From the IMG/VR virus record IMGVR_UViG_3300025284_000073, positions 1 to 27,159 of that record: a DNA stretch of 27,159 bases; one strand, given 5' to 3'. Positions 4,669-15,097 of this stretch are shown here, piece after piece. The stretch is from a virus. Position 1 is the first letter of the stretch; each line of letters begins with the position of its first letter. The notes under the pieces were generated by a model. It made no database searches. It was not told the DNA's origin and saw only the letters and a program-made list of their open reading frames with translations. The translations under genes and the position numbers were made by a program.

Positions 4669-5790
4669 TCAAACCCTCATCGGCATGAGCACGACGAGGA
4701 GCGGGTCGCCCTCGCGGCGCTGGAACAGAGCGGGGGAGCCGGGATCGGCGAGCTTCATCACGACGGTGTCGGAACCGCCGAGCACGCCCAGCACGTCGAG
4801 CAGATAGCGGGCGTTGAAGCCCATATCGATCGGGGTGCCGTCGTATTCGGCTTCGATCTCCTCGCGCGCCTCGCCCGAATCGGGATTGGTGACAGAGAGC
4901 GATAGGCCGGCATCTGTGAGCGAGAGCTTCACCGCCCGGCCGCGCTCGCTGGAGATGGTCGAGACGCGGTCGATGGCCTGCTTGAAGCCGTCCGCCTCGA
5001 GCGTCGCCAGCTTGTCGTTGCCGTGGGGAATGACCCGCTCATAGTCCGGGAAGGTGCCGTCGATCAGCTTCGAGGTCAGCGAGGTCTCAGCCGATGTGAC
5101 GCGGATCTTGGTCGGCGAGAGCTCGATCGTCAGATCGCCCTCGGCATCCTTGGCCATGCGGGCGATCTCACCGACCGCCTTGGTCGGGATGATCACGCCC
5201 GGCATGCCGTCGGTACCGGCCGGCGCCGGCAGTTCCAGCCGCGACAGGCGATGGCCGTCGGTGGCGACGGCGCGCAACACGGGGCCATCCTGCCCGGCGG
5301 TGGCGTGCAGATAGATGCCGTTCAGGTAGTAGCGCGTCTCCTCCGAGGAGATCGCGAAGCTGACCTGGGCGATCAGCTCGCCGATCGTCTTGGCCGGCAT
5401 GGCGAAGCGATGCGGCAGATCGCCGACGGTGATGTCGGGGAAATCGGTCTCCGGCAACGTGTGCATGGTGAAGCGGGAGCGGCCGGACTTGACCGTCATG
5501 CTCGTCGCCTTGGCATCCAGCTCCAGCGTGATCTGGGCCTCGGCCGGCAGCTTGCGGACGATGTCGGCCAGCGTATGTGCCGGTACGGTGATCGCGCCGG
5601 GCGCCGCGACATCGCAGGCGAGCGCGGTCTGCGCCTGGATGTCGAGATCGGTGGCCCGGACGGTGAGGCTGCCGCCTTCCGCCCGCAGCAGGATGTTCGA
5701 CAGCACGGGAATGGTGTTGCGCCGCTCGACCACGCGCGAGAGCGCGGCGAGCGCAGGGCTGAGCGTTTCGCGGGCGATGGTGAGCTTCAC
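4669..5790 (-). CDS. dnaN: DNA polymerase III beta subunit (sliding clamp)
   Basis: A 373-residue beta clamp, which as a ring dimer tethers DNA polymerase to DNA. All three repeated clamp domains are present: the first with RRNTIPVLSNILL and VRATDLDIQAQ, the second with FAISSEETRYYLNGIYLH and RAVATDGHRLSRLEL, and the third ending in LLVVLMPMRV, which matches the C terminus that forms the partner-binding pocket (usually MPMR/L). The length equals that of chromosomal DnaN, so this is not a fragment. GTG at 5790 is chosen because homology begins at KLTIARETLSPAL; the frame is open upstream to 6012 but without similarity. A clamp in a temperate phage is uncommon. It may replace or compete with the host clamp. 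It is followed immediately by the MazG-like gene. Confidence 0.95.
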   Translation of the reverse strand: MKLTIARETLSPALAALSRVVERRNTIPVLSNILLRAEGGSLTVRATDLDIQAQTALACDVAAPGAITVPAHTLADIVRKLPAEAQITLELDAKATSMTVKSGRSRFTMHTLPETDFPDITVGDLPHRFAMPAKTIGELIAQVSFAISSEETRYYLNGIYLHATAGQDGPVLRAVATDGHRLSRLELPAPAGTDGMPGVIIPTKAVGEIARMAKDAEGDLTIELSPTKIRVTSAETSLTSKLIDGTFPDYERVIPHGNDKLATLEADGFKQAIDRVSTISSERGRAVKLSLTDAGLSLSVTNPDSGEAREEIEAEYDGTPIDMGFNARYLLDVLGVLGGSDTVVMKLADPGSPALFQRREGDPLLVVLMPMRV

Positions 5791-5820
5791 GGCGGATGCT
5801 TTCGGGAGGAGAGGGATGGT

Positions 5821-5851
5821 GCGGGCCGGCCGCGGAGCGTCACCGGCCCGC
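5821..5851 (-). promoter_or_regulatory. Stem-loop between the DUF2303 gene and dnaN
   Basis: A perfect 9-bp inverted repeat (GCGGGCCGG and CCGGCCCGC) separated by 13 bases lies in the 104-bp spacer upstream of dnaN, the longest gap in the leftward operon. No T-run follows it in the direction of transcription, so it is not an obvious intrinsic terminator. It could be an attenuator, an RNA-stability element or a processing site that sets the level of dnaN relative to the upstream genes. Confidence 0.35.
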
Positions 5852-5894
5852 TGGGAGCGCCTACCCGGGAGGGAGGCCGACGCTCCGAACGTGA

Positions 5895-6875
5895 TCAGGC
5901 CTCGGGCGAGCCCTCGAAGGTCGGCAGCTCGGTCTTGCTCGCGACGGTGTCGAGGTCGTCCTTGACCTGGGCACGCAGCCAGAACTGCCAGCGATAGAGC
6001 TGGTAGGACCACTGGATCTCGCCGTTCACGATGCGATAGCGCAGGCGGGCCGGGATGCGGACGGTGTCGCCATCGACGAAGGCCGGCACCGACACCATGA
6101 AGATGCCGGGGATCTCGACCTTCTCGCCCTTGCCGTTCATGTGTTCTTCGACGAACTCGACAACGCGTTCGCCGGTCTGCATCCGGACGCCCTGCTTGAC
6201 CTTGGCGTTGACGAAGACTTCGAGGTTGCGCGACAGCGCGATCAGGTCGGCCGGCGTCGCGAAGCGCTCCTTAAAGAGCGTCTCGTATTCCGCGACCTCC
6301 GGTCCGAAGGGCGCAGAGAGCTCGGCTGCGTGGTCCTCGAGGAAGGCGGCGAAGGTCGCCTGATCCATCGCCTTGCCGTTCTTCTCGATCCAGACCTTGA
6401 ACTCGTCCGTGATCGGGAAGGCGTAGCGGATACGGTGGCGGCCCCAGCGGGCGGAGGCCTTCTCGCCGTGATAGTCGATGACGGCGGTCAGCGCCGGCTC
6501 GGGCCAGGCCGTCTTGCCGAACACGGCCGAGTCGTCGTTCTTGTGCCGGTTCACCAGGTCGATGAAGCTCTGCAGCGTCGTCGTCTCCGCCGACCCGTGC
6601 ACTTCGCCCGGCTCGATCCGGTAACGGTCGATGATGTCCTTGAGGCCGTCGATGCGGTTGCCGTCGCGGCGGTCGATAACGATCGGCACCGAGGGCGGCA
6701 GTCCGGCGCCGAGGCCGGTGGTCGGCAGAGAGACGATCTCGACAGCGCTGACCTCGCGGGCCAGCTCGACGATCGCGCTGATGCCGCCGTCGGAGTTCGG
6801 GATCGTGCTGCCGCAGGTATAGGGCGCGGCGATAGCTTCGAGGGTGGCGGCTTCGACCGCCGACTTATTGGCCAT
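5895..6875 (-). CDS. DUF2303 (YfdQ-like) phage protein
   Basis: A 326-residue protein of the DUF2303/YfdQ family, found in many temperate phages next to recombination and replication genes; its biochemical role is unknown to me. Features that fit are the N-terminal SFIDLVNRHKNDDSAVF region, LTAVIDYHGE, the middle segment with FKVWIEKNGKAMDQATFAAF, and the C-terminal beta-rich domain (IPARLRYRIVNGEIQWSYQL). No signal peptide or membrane span is seen. The ATG at 6875 is preceded by AAAGGAG with good spacing. The gene lies between a 113-residue unknown and dnaN in one transcript. Confidence 0.85.
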   Translation of the reverse strand: MANKSAVEAATLEAIAAPYTCGSTIPNSDGGISAIVELAREVSAVEIVSLPTTGLGAGLPPSVPIVIDRRDGNRIDGLKDIIDRYRIEPGEVHGSAETTTLQSFIDLVNRHKNDDSAVFGKTAWPEPALTAVIDYHGEKASARWGRHRIRYAFPITDEFKVWIEKNGKAMDQATFAAFLEDHAAELSAPFGPEVAEYETLFKERFATPADLIALSRNLEVFVNAKVKQGVRMQTGERVVEFVEEHMNGKGEKVEIPGIFMVSVPAFVDGDTVRIPARLRYRIVNGEIQWSYQLYRWQFWLRAQVKDDLDTVASKTELPTFEGSPEA

Positions 6876-11586: not shown

Positions 11587-11789
11587 GGCGCGGCTTTCGC
11601 CTTGAGAAGATCGGCCGCTTCCGCCGATCGGCCGGGCGCGGCATGGCCCGCGCCGGCTTCCCGGCCGCGATCATCGCCGCCGTGCTCGGCCTGAAGCGCG
11701 AAACGGCGCAGGCGCTGGTCGATGGCCGCAACGCCCCCGGCGCGCTCTGGAGCGCGGCCGAGATGGCACTGTTCAGGGAGGGGCGTTGA
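11583..11789 (+). CDS. Small basic helix-turn-helix-like protein
   Basis: A 68-residue, arginine-rich protein (MRRGFRLEKIGRFRRSAGRG) with a possible helix-turn-helix at about residues 24-50 (GFPAAIIAAVLGLKRETAQA). It begins in an ATGA overlap with the previous gene and ends in a TGATG overlap with the methyltransferase. Together with the two preceding small genes it forms a coupled set of likely DNA-binding proteins. Function is unknown. Confidence 0.65.
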   Translation: MRRGFRLEKIGRFRRSAGRGMARAGFPAAIIAAVLGLKRETAQALVDGRNAPGALWSAAEMALFREGR

Positions 11790-13312
11790 TGGCCCCGCTC
11801 TCCTTCCTCGATGGCAAGGTGATCCTGCACCCCGGCGATTGCCGGGAGGTGCTGCGCAGTCTGCCTGACGCCTCGATCGATTCCGTCGTCACCGACCCGC
11901 CCTATGCGCTGGTCTCGATCGGCAAGCGCTTCGGCAAGCCGGGCTCGGCGCCAGCGCTTCCGGGCAAGGGTGAGGGCGCGACCGGCGCTTATGCGCGCGC
12001 CTCGGCCGGCTTCATGGGGCAGGGCTGGGATACCGGCGAGACGGCGTTCTCGGTCGCGTTCTGGGCGGAGGTGCTGCGCGCGCTCAAGCCGGGCGGTCAT
12101 CTCGTCGCCTTCAGCGGAACGCGCACCTATCACCGGATGGTCTGCGCGATCGAGGATGGTGGCTTCGAGATCCGCGATCAACTTGCCTGGGCTTACGGCT
12201 CAGGATTTCCGAAGTCGCACGATGTCTCGAAGGGTATCCAGAAGCGCAGGCTGGAAGATGTCGCGCCGATCCGCGCCGTCTGCCGGTCGATCCGCGCTGC
12301 GATGGATGCCAAGGGTCTGAAGTCGCGGCATCTCACTGTGCATTTCGGTGACTGCCACCCGCGGCTCGTCGATCATTGGGCGGCGCGTGACAGCGACAGC
12401 CAACCGGCTCTGCCGACCTGGGATCAATGGGGTGTGCTGAAGGGCATTCTCAATCTCGGCGACGCCATGGACGCGGAAGTCTGGCGGCTCAATGGTCGAA
12501 AGGGCGAGCCTGGTGCGGCTTGGGCCGACGCCGAGGTGATCGGCGAATATAAGGGCCAGACGCCCGGGCTCGTCGGCAAGCGGTTCTCCGATGCCGACAG
12601 GACGATTCGCGTCGCGTCGAGCGATGCGGAGGCATGGCAGGGCTGGGGCACGGCGATGAAGCCGGCTTGGGAGCCGATCGTCCTGGCGCGCAAGCCTCTC
12701 GCGGGAACCGTAGCCGACAACGTCGTTCAACACGGCACCGGAGCGCTGAACATCGACGGTTGTCGGGTGGGCGACGCCAAGGCGGGCCGCTGGCCGGCGA
12801 ACATCGTCCATGATGGCAGCGACGAGGTGCTATCGGCTTTTCCGGAGGCGCCCGGGCAGCTTCGTGGCGTCACCGGAGCGGAGCGAGCAAAGCGCACCGT
12901 CAACGCCTATGGTGACTTCGGCGAGACGGCGCATGGCGCCGACCCGCGCGCCGATTCCGGCTCTGCCGCGCGCTTTTTCTATAGCGCCAAGGCCGATGCC
13001 GACGACCGGCTGGGCTCGAAGCATCCGACGGTGAAGCCGGTCGATCTGATGCAATGGCTATGCCGGCTGGTGACGCCGCCGGGCGGGACAGTGCTCGATC
13101 CCTTCGCCGGCACCGGCACGACCGGCGAAGCCGCCTTCCGCGAGGGCTTCCGCGCCGTGCTGATCGAGCGCGAGCCGCAGTTCCAGGCCGATATCGCCCG
13201 CCGCATGGAGCTGGCGCTCGCCGGCCCGGCGACCCGCAAGGCCGAAAGCGTCAAGGCGCGGGCGAAGGACGAGGAGCCGCTGCCGCTCTTCGCGGATGGA
13301 GAGGCGGCGTGA
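11789..13312 (+). CDS. DNA methyltransferase, beta-class N6-adenine/N4-cytosine type
   Basis: A 507-residue methyltransferase that transfers a methyl group from S-adenosylmethionine to an exocyclic amino group of adenine or cytosine. The catalytic motif IV is DPPY (D36-Y39) and the SAM-binding motif I is DPFAGTGTTG (437-446), near the C terminus; this order places it in the beta class with a target-recognition region between. HPTVKPVDLMQWL just before motif I is also typical. The region about 130-330 is long for the class and would hold the recognition domain; specificity cannot be read. I use the ATG at 11789, in a TGATG overlap, rather than the TTG one codon earlier. It probably protects phage DNA from restriction, together with the next gene. 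Confidence 0.93.
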   Translation: MAPLSFLDGKVILHPGDCREVLRSLPDASIDSVVTDPPYALVSIGKRFGKPGSAPALPGKGEGATGAYARASAGFMGQGWDTGETAFSVAFWAEVLRALKPGGHLVAFSGTRTYHRMVCAIEDGGFEIRDQLAWAYGSGFPKSHDVSKGIQKRRLEDVAPIRAVCRSIRAAMDAKGLKSRHLTVHFGDCHPRLVDHWAARDSDSQPALPTWDQWGVLKGILNLGDAMDAEVWRLNGRKGEPGAAWADAEVIGEYKGQTPGLVGKRFSDADRTIRVASSDAEAWQGWGTAMKPAWEPIVLARKPLAGTVADNVVQHGTGALNIDGCRVGDAKAGRWPANIVHDGSDEVLSAFPEAPGQLRGVTGAERAKRTVNAYGDFGETAHGADPRADSGSAARFFYSAKADADDRLGSKHPTVKPVDLMQWLCRLVTPPGGTVLDPFAGTGTTGEAAFREGFRAVLIEREPQFQADIARRMELALAGPATRKAESVKARAKDEEPLPLFADGEAA

Positions 13313-14208
13313 ATGTGGCTCTACGTCCCCAGCGAGGCCCTGCCGACCGTCTCGACCTCCTCTCCATCTGCACCGGAGGCGGCGGGCTCGATCTCGGCGT
13401 CGGACTGGCGCTTCCCGGCGCTCGCGTCGTCTGCATGGTGGAGAGGGAAGCCTTCGCCGTCGCGCACCTGGTTCAAGCGATGCGAGCGGGTCTCCTTCAT
13501 CCGGCTCCTGTGTGGAGCGATGCCCGAACCTTCGGCGGCCGAGCATGGCGTGGCTGCCTGGACGGCCTCATTGGCGGCATCCCGTGCCAGCCGCACAGCC
13601 TCGCCGGCAAGCGCCTCGCCGAACTCGATGAGCGCGACCTCTGGCCTCCGACCCGGCGCATCATCGCGCAGGCGCGGCCCTGGTTCGTCCTCATCGAGAA
13701 TGTCGGCGGCATGCTCTCATCGGGCGGGGCCGAGCGGGTTTGGCGAGAGCTGGGGCGCCTTGGTTTCAAGCGCGAGGTGGGACTTTTCTCGGCGGAGGAG
13801 GTCGGGTTCCCGCACGCCCGTGAGCGCCTTTTCATACTCGGTGTCAGCGACGCTCTTTCCGACGCCTTCGGCCCGCGATTTCAAGGGCGCGAATTCGGCT
13901 GGCCATCTCGATCGCTCGACCGGGAGTCTGCACCTCGACCAGTTGCCGAACTTCGTTCGACATATTTTCCGCCCGGCCCTCGATCTCTGCCGCAATGGAC
14001 AGAACTCATTGCCTCAGACCCCGGTCTTGAACCCGAGGTTTGTCGAAAGGCTGATGGGATGGCCGCCGCTCTGGACGCTGTCCGAATGCTCGGAAACGGC
14101 GTTGTCCCGCTTCAGGCAGCATATGCGCTGCGCACTCTCGCAACTCGCCTCGCACGACGCGGCTCTGCCGGCGCAGCTCGCCTTGTTCGGATGATGGCCG
14201 ATGCGTAA
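13309..14208 (+). CDS. C5-cytosine DNA methyltransferase
   Basis: A 299-residue C5-MTase that methylates carbon 5 of cytosine through a covalent intermediate. Motif I is CTGGGGLDLG (21-30), the catalytic cysteine is C93 in GGIPCQP (motif IV), motif VI is ENVGG (E130), motif VIII is HARERLF, and motif X is MLGNGVVPLQAAYAL from residue 260. The recognition region between VIII and X is short, about 80 residues. GTG at 13309 overlaps the previous stop as GTGA. The last third is also open in the +1 frame, which encodes a different recognisable phage module (see the entry at 13841). Likely role: anti-restriction or epigenetic control, paired with the amino-methyltransferase upstream. Confidence 0.92.
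   Translation: MNVALRPQRGPADRLDLLSICTGGGGLDLGVGLALPGARVVCMVEREAFAVAHLVQAMRAGLLHPAPVWSDARTFGGRAWRGCLDGLIGGIPCQPHSLAGKRLAELDERDLWPPTRRIIAQARPWFVLIENVGGMLSSGGAERVWRELGRLGFKREVGLFSAEEVGFPHARERLFILGVSDALSDAFGPRFQGREFGWPSRSLDRESAPRPVAELRSTYFPPGPRSLPQWTELIASDPGLEPEVCRKADGMAAALDAVRMLGNGVVPLQAAYALRTLATRLARRGSAGAARLVRMMADA
13841..14194 (+). CDS. Candidate overlapping gene in the +1 frame of the C5-MTase
   Basis: Within the C5-MTase gene, the +1 frame is open from 13313 to 14194 and its last 117 codons read like a real phage protein: TLFPTPSARDFKGANSAGH, then LHLDQLPNFV, then LNPRFVERLMGWPPLWT and ALSRFRQHMRCALSQL. I recall this PTPSARD ... LNPRFVExLMGWP module from proteins and C-terminal segments linked to phage C5-MTases. 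The upstream part of the frame (before about 13840) looks like noise. A GTG at 13841 could start it but has no good ribosome-binding site; initiation at the ATG at 13313 or a +1 frameshift near 13830-13840 are alternatives. The same bases encode motif X in the main frame, so both cannot be dismissed. Product not proven. Confidence 0.4.
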   Translation: MSATLFPTPSARDFKGANSAGHLDRSTGSLHLDQLPNFVRHIFRPALDLCRNGQNSLPQTPVLNPRFVERLMGWPPLWTLSECSETALSRFRQHMRCALSQLASHDAALPAQLALFG

Positions 14209-14461: not shown

Positions 14462-14890
14462 TCAGAGGAACCGCTTGCTCGCCGCGCTGCCGGCGACCGC
14501 CTCGATATAGGCCGAGCGGGTCACGCCCTTCGCCTTGGCTGCGGCGTCGATCCGATTCAGCACGTCGCGGGCGAGCATGATGTTGACCCGCTCCTTGGGC
14601 GGCTGCGCCTCGATCAGCTGGATCGGAATCGCCTTGGCGCCTTCCTTCTGATCGTCGGTAAAGGCCCGGCTCTCGGTCGCCAAACGAGCGTAGCTGCGCG
14701 GGGGCGGAACCTCGTCGCCGTCAGCCACCATAGCGGCGATGTGACCGGACAAGGCTTCCCTGGCGTTCGCCACAGCCTCCTCGAAGCTTTCTCCAAAGCT
14801 GGTACAACCCGGCAGATCCGGGAAAGTGACGCCCCACGAGCCGCCGGCCTGATGGGGTTCGTGGATCAGCGCGATATAATCCTGGGCCAT
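14462..14890 (-). CDS. hicB: HicB-type antitoxin
   Basis: A 142-residue antitoxin that binds and neutralises the HicA RNase and represses the operon. The N-terminal half is the partial RNase-H-like HicB fold (YIALIHEPHQAGGSWGVTFP and PDLPGCTSFGESFEEAVANA, the hallmark P-D-L-P-G-C-x-S-x-G). The C-terminal 45 residues form a ribbon-helix-helix DNA-binding domain (KERVNIMLARDVLNRIDAAA). The ATG at 14890 follows AGGAG, 24 bp after the hicA stop. The usual order, toxin first, is kept. The two palindromes upstream of hicA are its likely operators. Confidence 0.93.
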   Translation of the reverse strand: MAQDYIALIHEPHQAGGSWGVTFPDLPGCTSFGESFEEAVANAREALSGHIAAMVADGDEVPPPRSYARLATESRAFTDDQKEGAKAIPIQLIEAQPPKERVNIMLARDVLNRIDAAAKAKGVTRSAYIEAVAGSAASKRFL

Positions 14891-14914: not shown

Positions 14915-15097
14915 TCAGATGAGGCCGGCCTGTTTCCTGACGGACTTCACCGTCTTGGGGTGCATGTCCTTGACCGGATGCGGCACCGTCACCTTCCCCG
15001 GCTTCACCGGGTGCTTGAAGTGATGGTGGCTGCCCGTCACCGAGTGAAGCTGCCAGCCATCCTGCTCCAGCTCCTTGATCAACTCTCGCGACTGCAT
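14915..15097 (-). CDS. hicA: HicA-type mRNA interferase toxin
   Basis: A 60-residue toxin with a double-stranded-RNA-binding-like fold that cleaves mRNA when free of HicB. It opens with SRELIKELEQDGWQL, followed by the conserved catalytic histidine loop GSHHHFKHP (H24), then VTVPHPVKDMHPKTVKSV, all in family order and at full length. A GGGAG ribosome-binding site precedes the ATG. The toxin has every expected residue and looks functional. As a prophage module it may stabilise the lysogen or act against superinfecting phages. Confidence 0.92.
   Translation of the reverse strand: MQSRELIKELEQDGWQLHSVTGSHHHFKHPVKPGKVTVPHPVKDMHPKTVKSVRKQAGLI

Follow-up and report, generated by a model that had tools for sequence, protein, structure and literature searches.

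In the window, the 27,159-nucleotide stretch of viral DNA analysed here (IMG/VR record IMGVR_UViG_3300025284_000073), a gene for a C5-cytosine DNA methyltransferase encodes two proteins on the same strand, alpha in frame 0 and beta in frame +1. Sequence statistics reveal purifying selection in both frames, and this dual coding is real across the whole gene. The second protein most likely carries the DNA-recognition part of the enzyme. The layout recurs in many other phages and is a real, little-noticed form of a rare enzyme type that is already known, to which the window gene belongs as a phage-borne variant.

An earlier note on this DNA had reported two peptides sharing the same bases, and both reading frames, with their peptides and coordinates, are present as described. 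Frame 0 reads ...LEPEVCRKADGMAAALDAVRMLGNGVVPLQAAYAL, with RKADGMAAAL at 14041-14070, and frame +1 reads LFPTPSARDFKGANSAGHL...LDQLPNFV...LNPRFVERLMGWPPLWT...LSRFRQHMRCALSQL, with VERLMGWPPL at 14042-14071. The overlap had been placed at 13841-14194; it is real, but this restriction was wrong, as the +1 ORF spans nearly the whole gene, from 13313 to its TGA stop at 14192-14194 (Table 1). The GTG start of alpha overlaps the stop of the upstream gene, and its translation holds motifs I-VIII and X without motif IX. Frame 0 is matched by Pfam DNA_methylase (PF00145; 1.7e-22, 80.7 bits against a cut-off of 22, residues 17-183) and by phrog_363 (2e-43, residues 13-277); among the NCBIfam models, alpha matched the dcm superfamily only, below the cut-off. 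A HicB-like/HicA pair follows immediately downstream of this gene and is encoded on the other strand. The sliding clamp encoded elsewhere in the window closely resembles bacterial clamps; the best match leaves out the initial 74 residues of its ORF, whose start may be wrong.

Table 1. Features of the methyltransferase locus and other genes named in the text (window coordinates)
Feature	Position	Strand	Basis and remarks
Upstream N6/N4 methyltransferase gene	11786..13312	+	Pfam N6_N4_Mtase 3.8e-23; its TGA lies within the double start
Putative Shine-Dalgarno-like GGAGAGG	13298..13304	+	4 nt before GTG, 8 nt before ATG; read from the sequence
Alpha, C5-cytosine methyltransferase, frame 0	13309..14208	+	Pfam, phrog_363, translation
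Double start GTGAATG	13309..13315	+	Alpha GTG 13309, upstream TGA stop 13310-13312, beta ATG 13313
Beta, +1 frame protein, 293 aa, nested in alpha	13313..14194	+	Own ATG; stop avoidance, start conservation, selection
Alpha motifs I-VIII	13345..13848	+	Frame 0 dominant, +1 kept open
Beta recognition module LFPTPSARDFKGANSAGHL..LDQLPNFV	13853..13957	+	Such regions are coded mainly in +1
Alpha block before motif IX (FPPGP..W in relatives)	13954..13995	+	Frame-0-only constraint, codons 216-229
Beta motif IX LNPRFVERLMGWPPLWT	14027..14077	+	Conservation; Pfam alignment of a naturally fused relative
Alpha motif X MLGNGVVPLQAAYAL	14083..14127	+	Translation, conservation
Beta C-terminal QLALF, sliding-clamp-binding-like motif	14174..14188	+	Family conservation, published consensus
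Beta sliding clamp, phage-encoded	4669..6012	-	phrog_947 1.6e-98; three Pfam DNA_pol3_beta domains; PDB 6deg 1.9e-110
HicB-like antitoxin	14462-14890	-	Pfam 1.9e-28
HicA toxin	14915-15097	-	Pfam 6.6e-22

Stop codons are strongly avoided in frame +1. Over the half of the gene that encodes motifs I-VIII, the 38 window-family genes contain a single +1 stop, against 86.9 expected from synonymous shuffling (110 when the upstream gene's codon usage is applied), while the control frame +2 contains 165 against 193 expected in the same genes. Free variation and stop codons in frame +1 among close relatives, which the earlier note had named as evidence against its proposal, were thus not what we found. 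The one stop is in a relative with 67% identity (L021), where 140 +1 codons remain, with one start-type codon (TTG) ahead of the first WPTP module. Among genes of the type found in phages C72C1 and Rani, the 55 with less than 50% G+C have +1 ORFs covering stretches in which synonymous shuffling predicts 415 stops; the absence of stops within an ORF is true by definition, its length is not.

In these C72C1/Rani-type genes beta starts inside alpha, and the ends of alpha are therefore free of overlap and provide an internal control. Across 76 such genes, 4-fold-site divergence was 0.618 before the +1 opening and 0.625 past its stop, and inside the +1 ORF it was 0.375 over motifs IV-VIII, 0.334 in the recognition region and 0.075 in motif IX (for pairs of 45-93% identity and codons no more than 85 before the PCQ motif). 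Amino-acid identity was 0.62 before and 0.67 inside the first overlap stretch. The depression of synonymous change that the earlier note had suggested looking for is thus present inside the +1 ORF.

Since the recognition region aligns poorly in this analysis (0.21 identity), local DNA alignments are the better test there. Mismatch at frame-0 codon positions 1/2/3 of this region was.40/.16/.09 in the window family (173 HSPs, 37 sequences, after 4 out-of-phase HSPs of 177 had been left out) and.405/.147/.086 in the other types (209 HSPs, 75 sequences, 5 of 214 left out), with amino-acid identities of 0.82-0.84 in frame +1 versus 0.51-0.52 in frame 0. This is the codon-position pattern of a gene read in +1. 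Along the window gene, 4-fold differences were.09 in codons 1-20, which cover MWLYVP and are constrained mainly in +1, and.28-.52 across codons 21-180. Codons 216-229, constrained in frame 0 only, reached.66-.69, and codons 230-236 gave.38. Values were.07-.22 for motif IX (codons 237-258),.31-.35 in the area of motif X and.20-.14 over the last codons. Dominance alternates between the frames: motifs I-VIII, motif X and the block preceding motif IX belong mainly to frame 0, and +1 prevails at the start and over motif IX and the recognition modules, the C-terminal QLALF also being constrained in +1.

Homologues of the +1 peptide, whose absence the earlier note would have counted against its proposal, do exist. 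For the 3' part of the window beta (P0002), phrog_27243 is the stronger match (1.3e-22) and phrog_1008 the weaker (1.3e-8), the latter also matched by the +1 ORFs of eight other loci; Pfam returned no match for P0002 or for Rani gp51, and NCBIfam none for the window beta. By tblastn, this peptide lies in frame +1 of the methyltransferase in 64 of 65 loci, the exception being L020 (71 loci, L001-L071, less six without one of the two matches). The P0002 search is biased toward +1, and an unbiased count was therefore taken from loci found with frame-0 queries only: P0001, phage C72C1 alpha and Rani alpha, with the best 80 of 363 used for Rani. Removing 34 duplicates and 8 truncated ORFs from these 192 loci left 150 distinct complete relatives. 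Motif IX (of the LNPxWVEWLMGFPxGWT type) lay in frame +1 for 128 of them and in frame 0 for 2; frame +2 never held it, and 20 had no match to the strict pattern. In the window gene it occurs in +1 only. Among all 216 complete ORFs the strict pattern was unmatched in 32, several of which show a +1 variant by eye (uncounted); one relative with 63% identity to the window alpha (L025) has a recognisable motif IX in neither frame.

Beta carries WPTPxARD-type modules, which differ between relatives by eye, together with motif IX. That it is the recognition and motif-IX subunit is suggested by actinophage C5-methyltransferases in which the corresponding parts are fused or split. Actinophage genes of this kind (L073, L074, L226-L271) consist of one ORF or of two overlapping ORFs. 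In ShiLan gp70, motifs I-VIII, LPTP modules, IX and X all lie in a single ORF. A search with this protein gave 77 loci, which we classed by the frames of their matches: 17 had one nearly full-length match in one frame; 25 had the modules-IX-X part in the frame that is +1 to that of motifs I-VIII; 31 were more distant (L272-L302), with the LPTP match in +1 in 30; and 4 were other or unclear. Jarcob genes 69/70 look as if an indel between motifs VI and VIII had divided a ShiLan-type gene in two.

The assignment of motif IX rests on sequence resemblance and on the Pfam alignment of one natural fusion, L225, a single ORF with motifs I-VIII, LPTP modules and IX whose residues 1-295 align with positions 1-294 of the 324 in Pfam DNA_methylase. 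L225 and L159 are both single ORFs combining motifs I-VIII, WPTP modules and IX without motif X, and may be natural fusions, recent indels or sequencing errors. The structure model of a fused actinophage protein (L226) has a good catalytic domain and IX-X part, with pLDDT <50 in the recognition stretch (164-256); it aligns with M.HhaI (Z 22.1, 236 residues, rmsd 3.2 A), which supports a methyltransferase architecture, not a module fold. AlphaFold applied to the window beta alone (35 sequences) gave a pTM of 0.25, without a confident fold.

The small-subunit gene of M.EcoHK31I sits inside the large one, out of frame, and EcoHK31I is part of a restriction-modification system. The nesting of 13313-14194 within 13309-14208 in frame +1 is of the same kind. 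M.EcoHK31I is made of two polypeptides, of which the larger holds motifs I-VIII and X plus a predicted recognition domain and the smaller holds motif IX (PMC3404938). The window gene resembles it in motif arrangement, its large polypeptide having I-VIII and X and motif IX being confined to the small polypeptide. The recognition domain of M.EcoHK31I (YGGCCR) is predicted in the large subunit in the same text (PMC3404938), whereas the window modules lie in the beta frame. Further differences are that window-type modules vary between phages, that beta has a QxxLF motif, and that the gene has a double start and is phage-borne. M.AquI, described there as a naturally divided two-subunit C5-methyltransferase (PMC3404938), is comparable to what we propose for the window, but its division into I-VIII and IX-X is nearer to the actinophage split form.

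Phage annotations hold further parallels. In Paenibacillus larvae phage Rani (gp50/gp51), gp51 is the +1 ORF, annotated as 'g50 Internal gene'; its beta starts at an internal ATG within alpha and has QLTLF near the N-terminus, while the window beta starts at the start of the gene. PHROG lists phrog_27243 as of unknown function and phrog_1008 as DNA methyltransferase, and the entries do not mention nesting. A hidden out-of-frame ORF has been described within the actinophage methylase gene gp65 (HNH endonuclease / ShiLan domain; PMC11855218); this ORF is a mobile homing endonuclease in another methylase, not a subunit (PMC11855218). In the part of the literature covered, we found no published account of such an overlap in phage C5-methyltransferases. 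By analogy, these comparisons suggest that M.EcoHK31I may be the one characterised representative of an enzyme common in phages.

We therefore favor, with good though not full confidence, a reading in which the same bases would encode both subunits of a two-polypeptide C5-cytosine DNA methyltransferase, a catalytic alpha and a recognition beta. Ribosomes ending the upstream N6/N4-methyltransferase would start either at the GTG of alpha or, four bases on, at the ATG of beta, as the GTGAATG sequence suggests. Motif X and the catalytic domain (motifs I-VIII) would come from alpha; beta would contribute motif IX along with the variable target-recognition modules, and would probably join alpha in trans to give the active enzyme. 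We infer, in turn, that beta is made, that it binds alpha and that both are needed. The two-subunit reading is supported by the position of motif IX in +1 in the large majority of relatives (128/150), by the fused and split actinophage forms and by the similar division of motifs in M.EcoHK31I (PMC3404938). It is weakened by the N-half stop of L021 and the missing motif IX of L025, by the poor model of the window beta and the low pLDDT of the L226 recognition stretch, by the placement of the predicted recognition domain of M.EcoHK31I in its large subunit in that text (PMC3404938), and by the N- and C-termini of beta that lack the strict motif described below.

The separate starts are conserved. 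Of 41 window-type loci, counted with redundant ones, 33 combine an NTGA overlap with an immediate +1 M(x)W[L/I] start. Salmonella phage S9-5 and the E. coli PT62 prophage share the GTGAATG layout, there with MSWLFSQ in +1; the upstream stop is annotated for S9-5 only. In C72C1/Rani-type genes the +1 ORF usually opens ~13-26 codons ahead of the PCQ motif, with an ATG usually shortly after the opening, often behind an SD-like sequence such as AAAGGAG (by eye).

The termini of beta carry a second conserved element. Its C-terminus in the window family is QLALF or one of QLSLF, QLGLF, QSDLF, QQNLF and QRDLF; QxxL[FW] is present in 24 of 30 distinct C-termini, against 0.3 expected, and is absent in its strict form from 6, including those of the more distant L067 and L071. 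In the C72C1/Rani type the motif is N-terminal (QLTLF, QKDLF and others), with 48 of 72 against 2.1 expected and 24 lacking the strict form, counted in the first 26 codons past the +1 opening and not from the exact start. Expectations came from synonymous resampling of frame-0 codons, and the counts left out genes with unreadable codons or no +1 stop, duplicate ends and other layouts. The QxxLF-type motif in beta is under selection. The bacterial sliding-clamp-binding consensus is QL[S/D]LF or QxxLF (PMC12309361), and in transposases the clamp-binding motif is often C-terminal (PMC4549789). From this resemblance, coupling of the methyltransferase to the clamp is plausible: through QLALF the enzyme may be held at the clamp that the phage itself encodes, and newly made DNA would then be methylated at the fork.

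Three other explanations were weighed. The first holds that the +1 ORF is translated and selected but that beta is independent, for instance a regulator, an anti-restriction factor or an adaptor, with alpha alone acting as the methyltransferase. The poor AlphaFold model would be compatible with this, as would the retention by alpha of an in-frame motif X and of the frame-0-constrained block ahead of it. We nevertheless consider it unlikely, given that alpha is without the motif IX that most relatives have in +1 (128 of 150), that in the fused and split actinophage forms modules of this kind and motif IX are part of the methyltransferase or adjoin it, and that M.EcoHK31I provides a precedent (PMC3404938).

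Second, the earlier note had offered, beside overprinting, a +1 frameshift producing an alternative C-terminus; past motif VIII, a programmed shift would fuse the catalytic half of alpha to the +1 recognition half. Natural fusions show that such a protein can exist, the +1 stop of L021 sits upstream of that junction, and +1 amino-acid dominance in the window family, the first 20 codons aside, begins right past motif VIII. Against this stand the avoidance of +1 stops throughout the N-half (1 versus 86.9), the mainly +1 constraint on the first 20 codons (4-fold.09), the conserved +1 ATG starts and the absence, by eye, of a constant slippery site from the junction alignment. With +1 open from the start of the gene, the MWLYVP segment constrained and beta having ATGs of its own, we regard the frameshift as unlikely. 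The other suggestion of that note, that one stretch encodes two selected proteins, is borne out by codon-position patterns, synonymous suppression, stop avoidance and conserved separate starts.

G+C-rich genomes tend toward long open alternative frames. That the +1 conservation is a mere shadow of frame-0 conservation in such DNA is scarcely credible and is contradicted by internal controls and by the codon-position patterns. Shadow may account for part of the +1 N-half, where frame-0 position 3 is most variable, but in the recognition region that position varies least (.09) and identity is higher in +1 than in frame 0, synonymous suppression begins and ends with the +1 ORF, and in the 55 genes below 50% G+C this ORF spans stretches with 415 expected stops.

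Loci in cellular genomes come mostly from organisms that, going by record titles and known taxonomy, we take to be Rhizobiales (10 of 11), the remaining one being from an uncultured Rhodobacteraceae bin. Within the family of a genome (G001) that holds the Sinorhizobium glycinis locus L305, phrog_27243 matches 13 of 199 genomes, and it matches none of 14 control genomes; an in-frame TGA is present at 3 of the 17 matched places in this survey. The S9-5-type gene is rare in E. coli (4 of 5,426 complete genomes), and in one of the two copies examined (L314, E. coli PCP07014, 1501-2262) alpha has an internal stop and is a RefSeq pseudogene. The same stretch of this prophage copy also has a +1 stop. 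Searches of plasmids gave 3 records for beta and 107 with S9-5 alpha. Annotation of the loci is uneven: two Synechococcus phages share the layout but have opposite frames annotated, and among L001/L002 and L003, Ssp-JY39 and Acidovorax phage Alfacinha1 list the +1 ORF and Yong-M2-251 lists frame 0.

To our knowledge, long same-strand overlaps selected in both frames have rarely been documented in bacteria and phages. The present layout persists down to ~30-40% amino-acid identity, in loci of 33 to 69% G+C, and it therefore offers a rich natural system for studies of overprinting. Taking the two-subunit reading further, we propose, with our confidence about evenly divided, a large and mostly unrecognised class of phage C5-methyltransferases, with members in Rhizobiales prophages and in cyanophages, enterobacterial, Paenibacillus, Lactobacillus, Bacteroides and marine phages. 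An exchangeable recognition half would be coded in +1 over the catalytic half, with the dominant frame alternating, and the clamp-binding motif of the recognition subunit would deliver methylation at the fork, here via the phage-encoded clamp. Many phage methyltransferase annotations would then show only half of the enzyme, and the proposal predicts that specificity may be swapped by exchange of +1 modules and that methylation would be coupled to the clamp.
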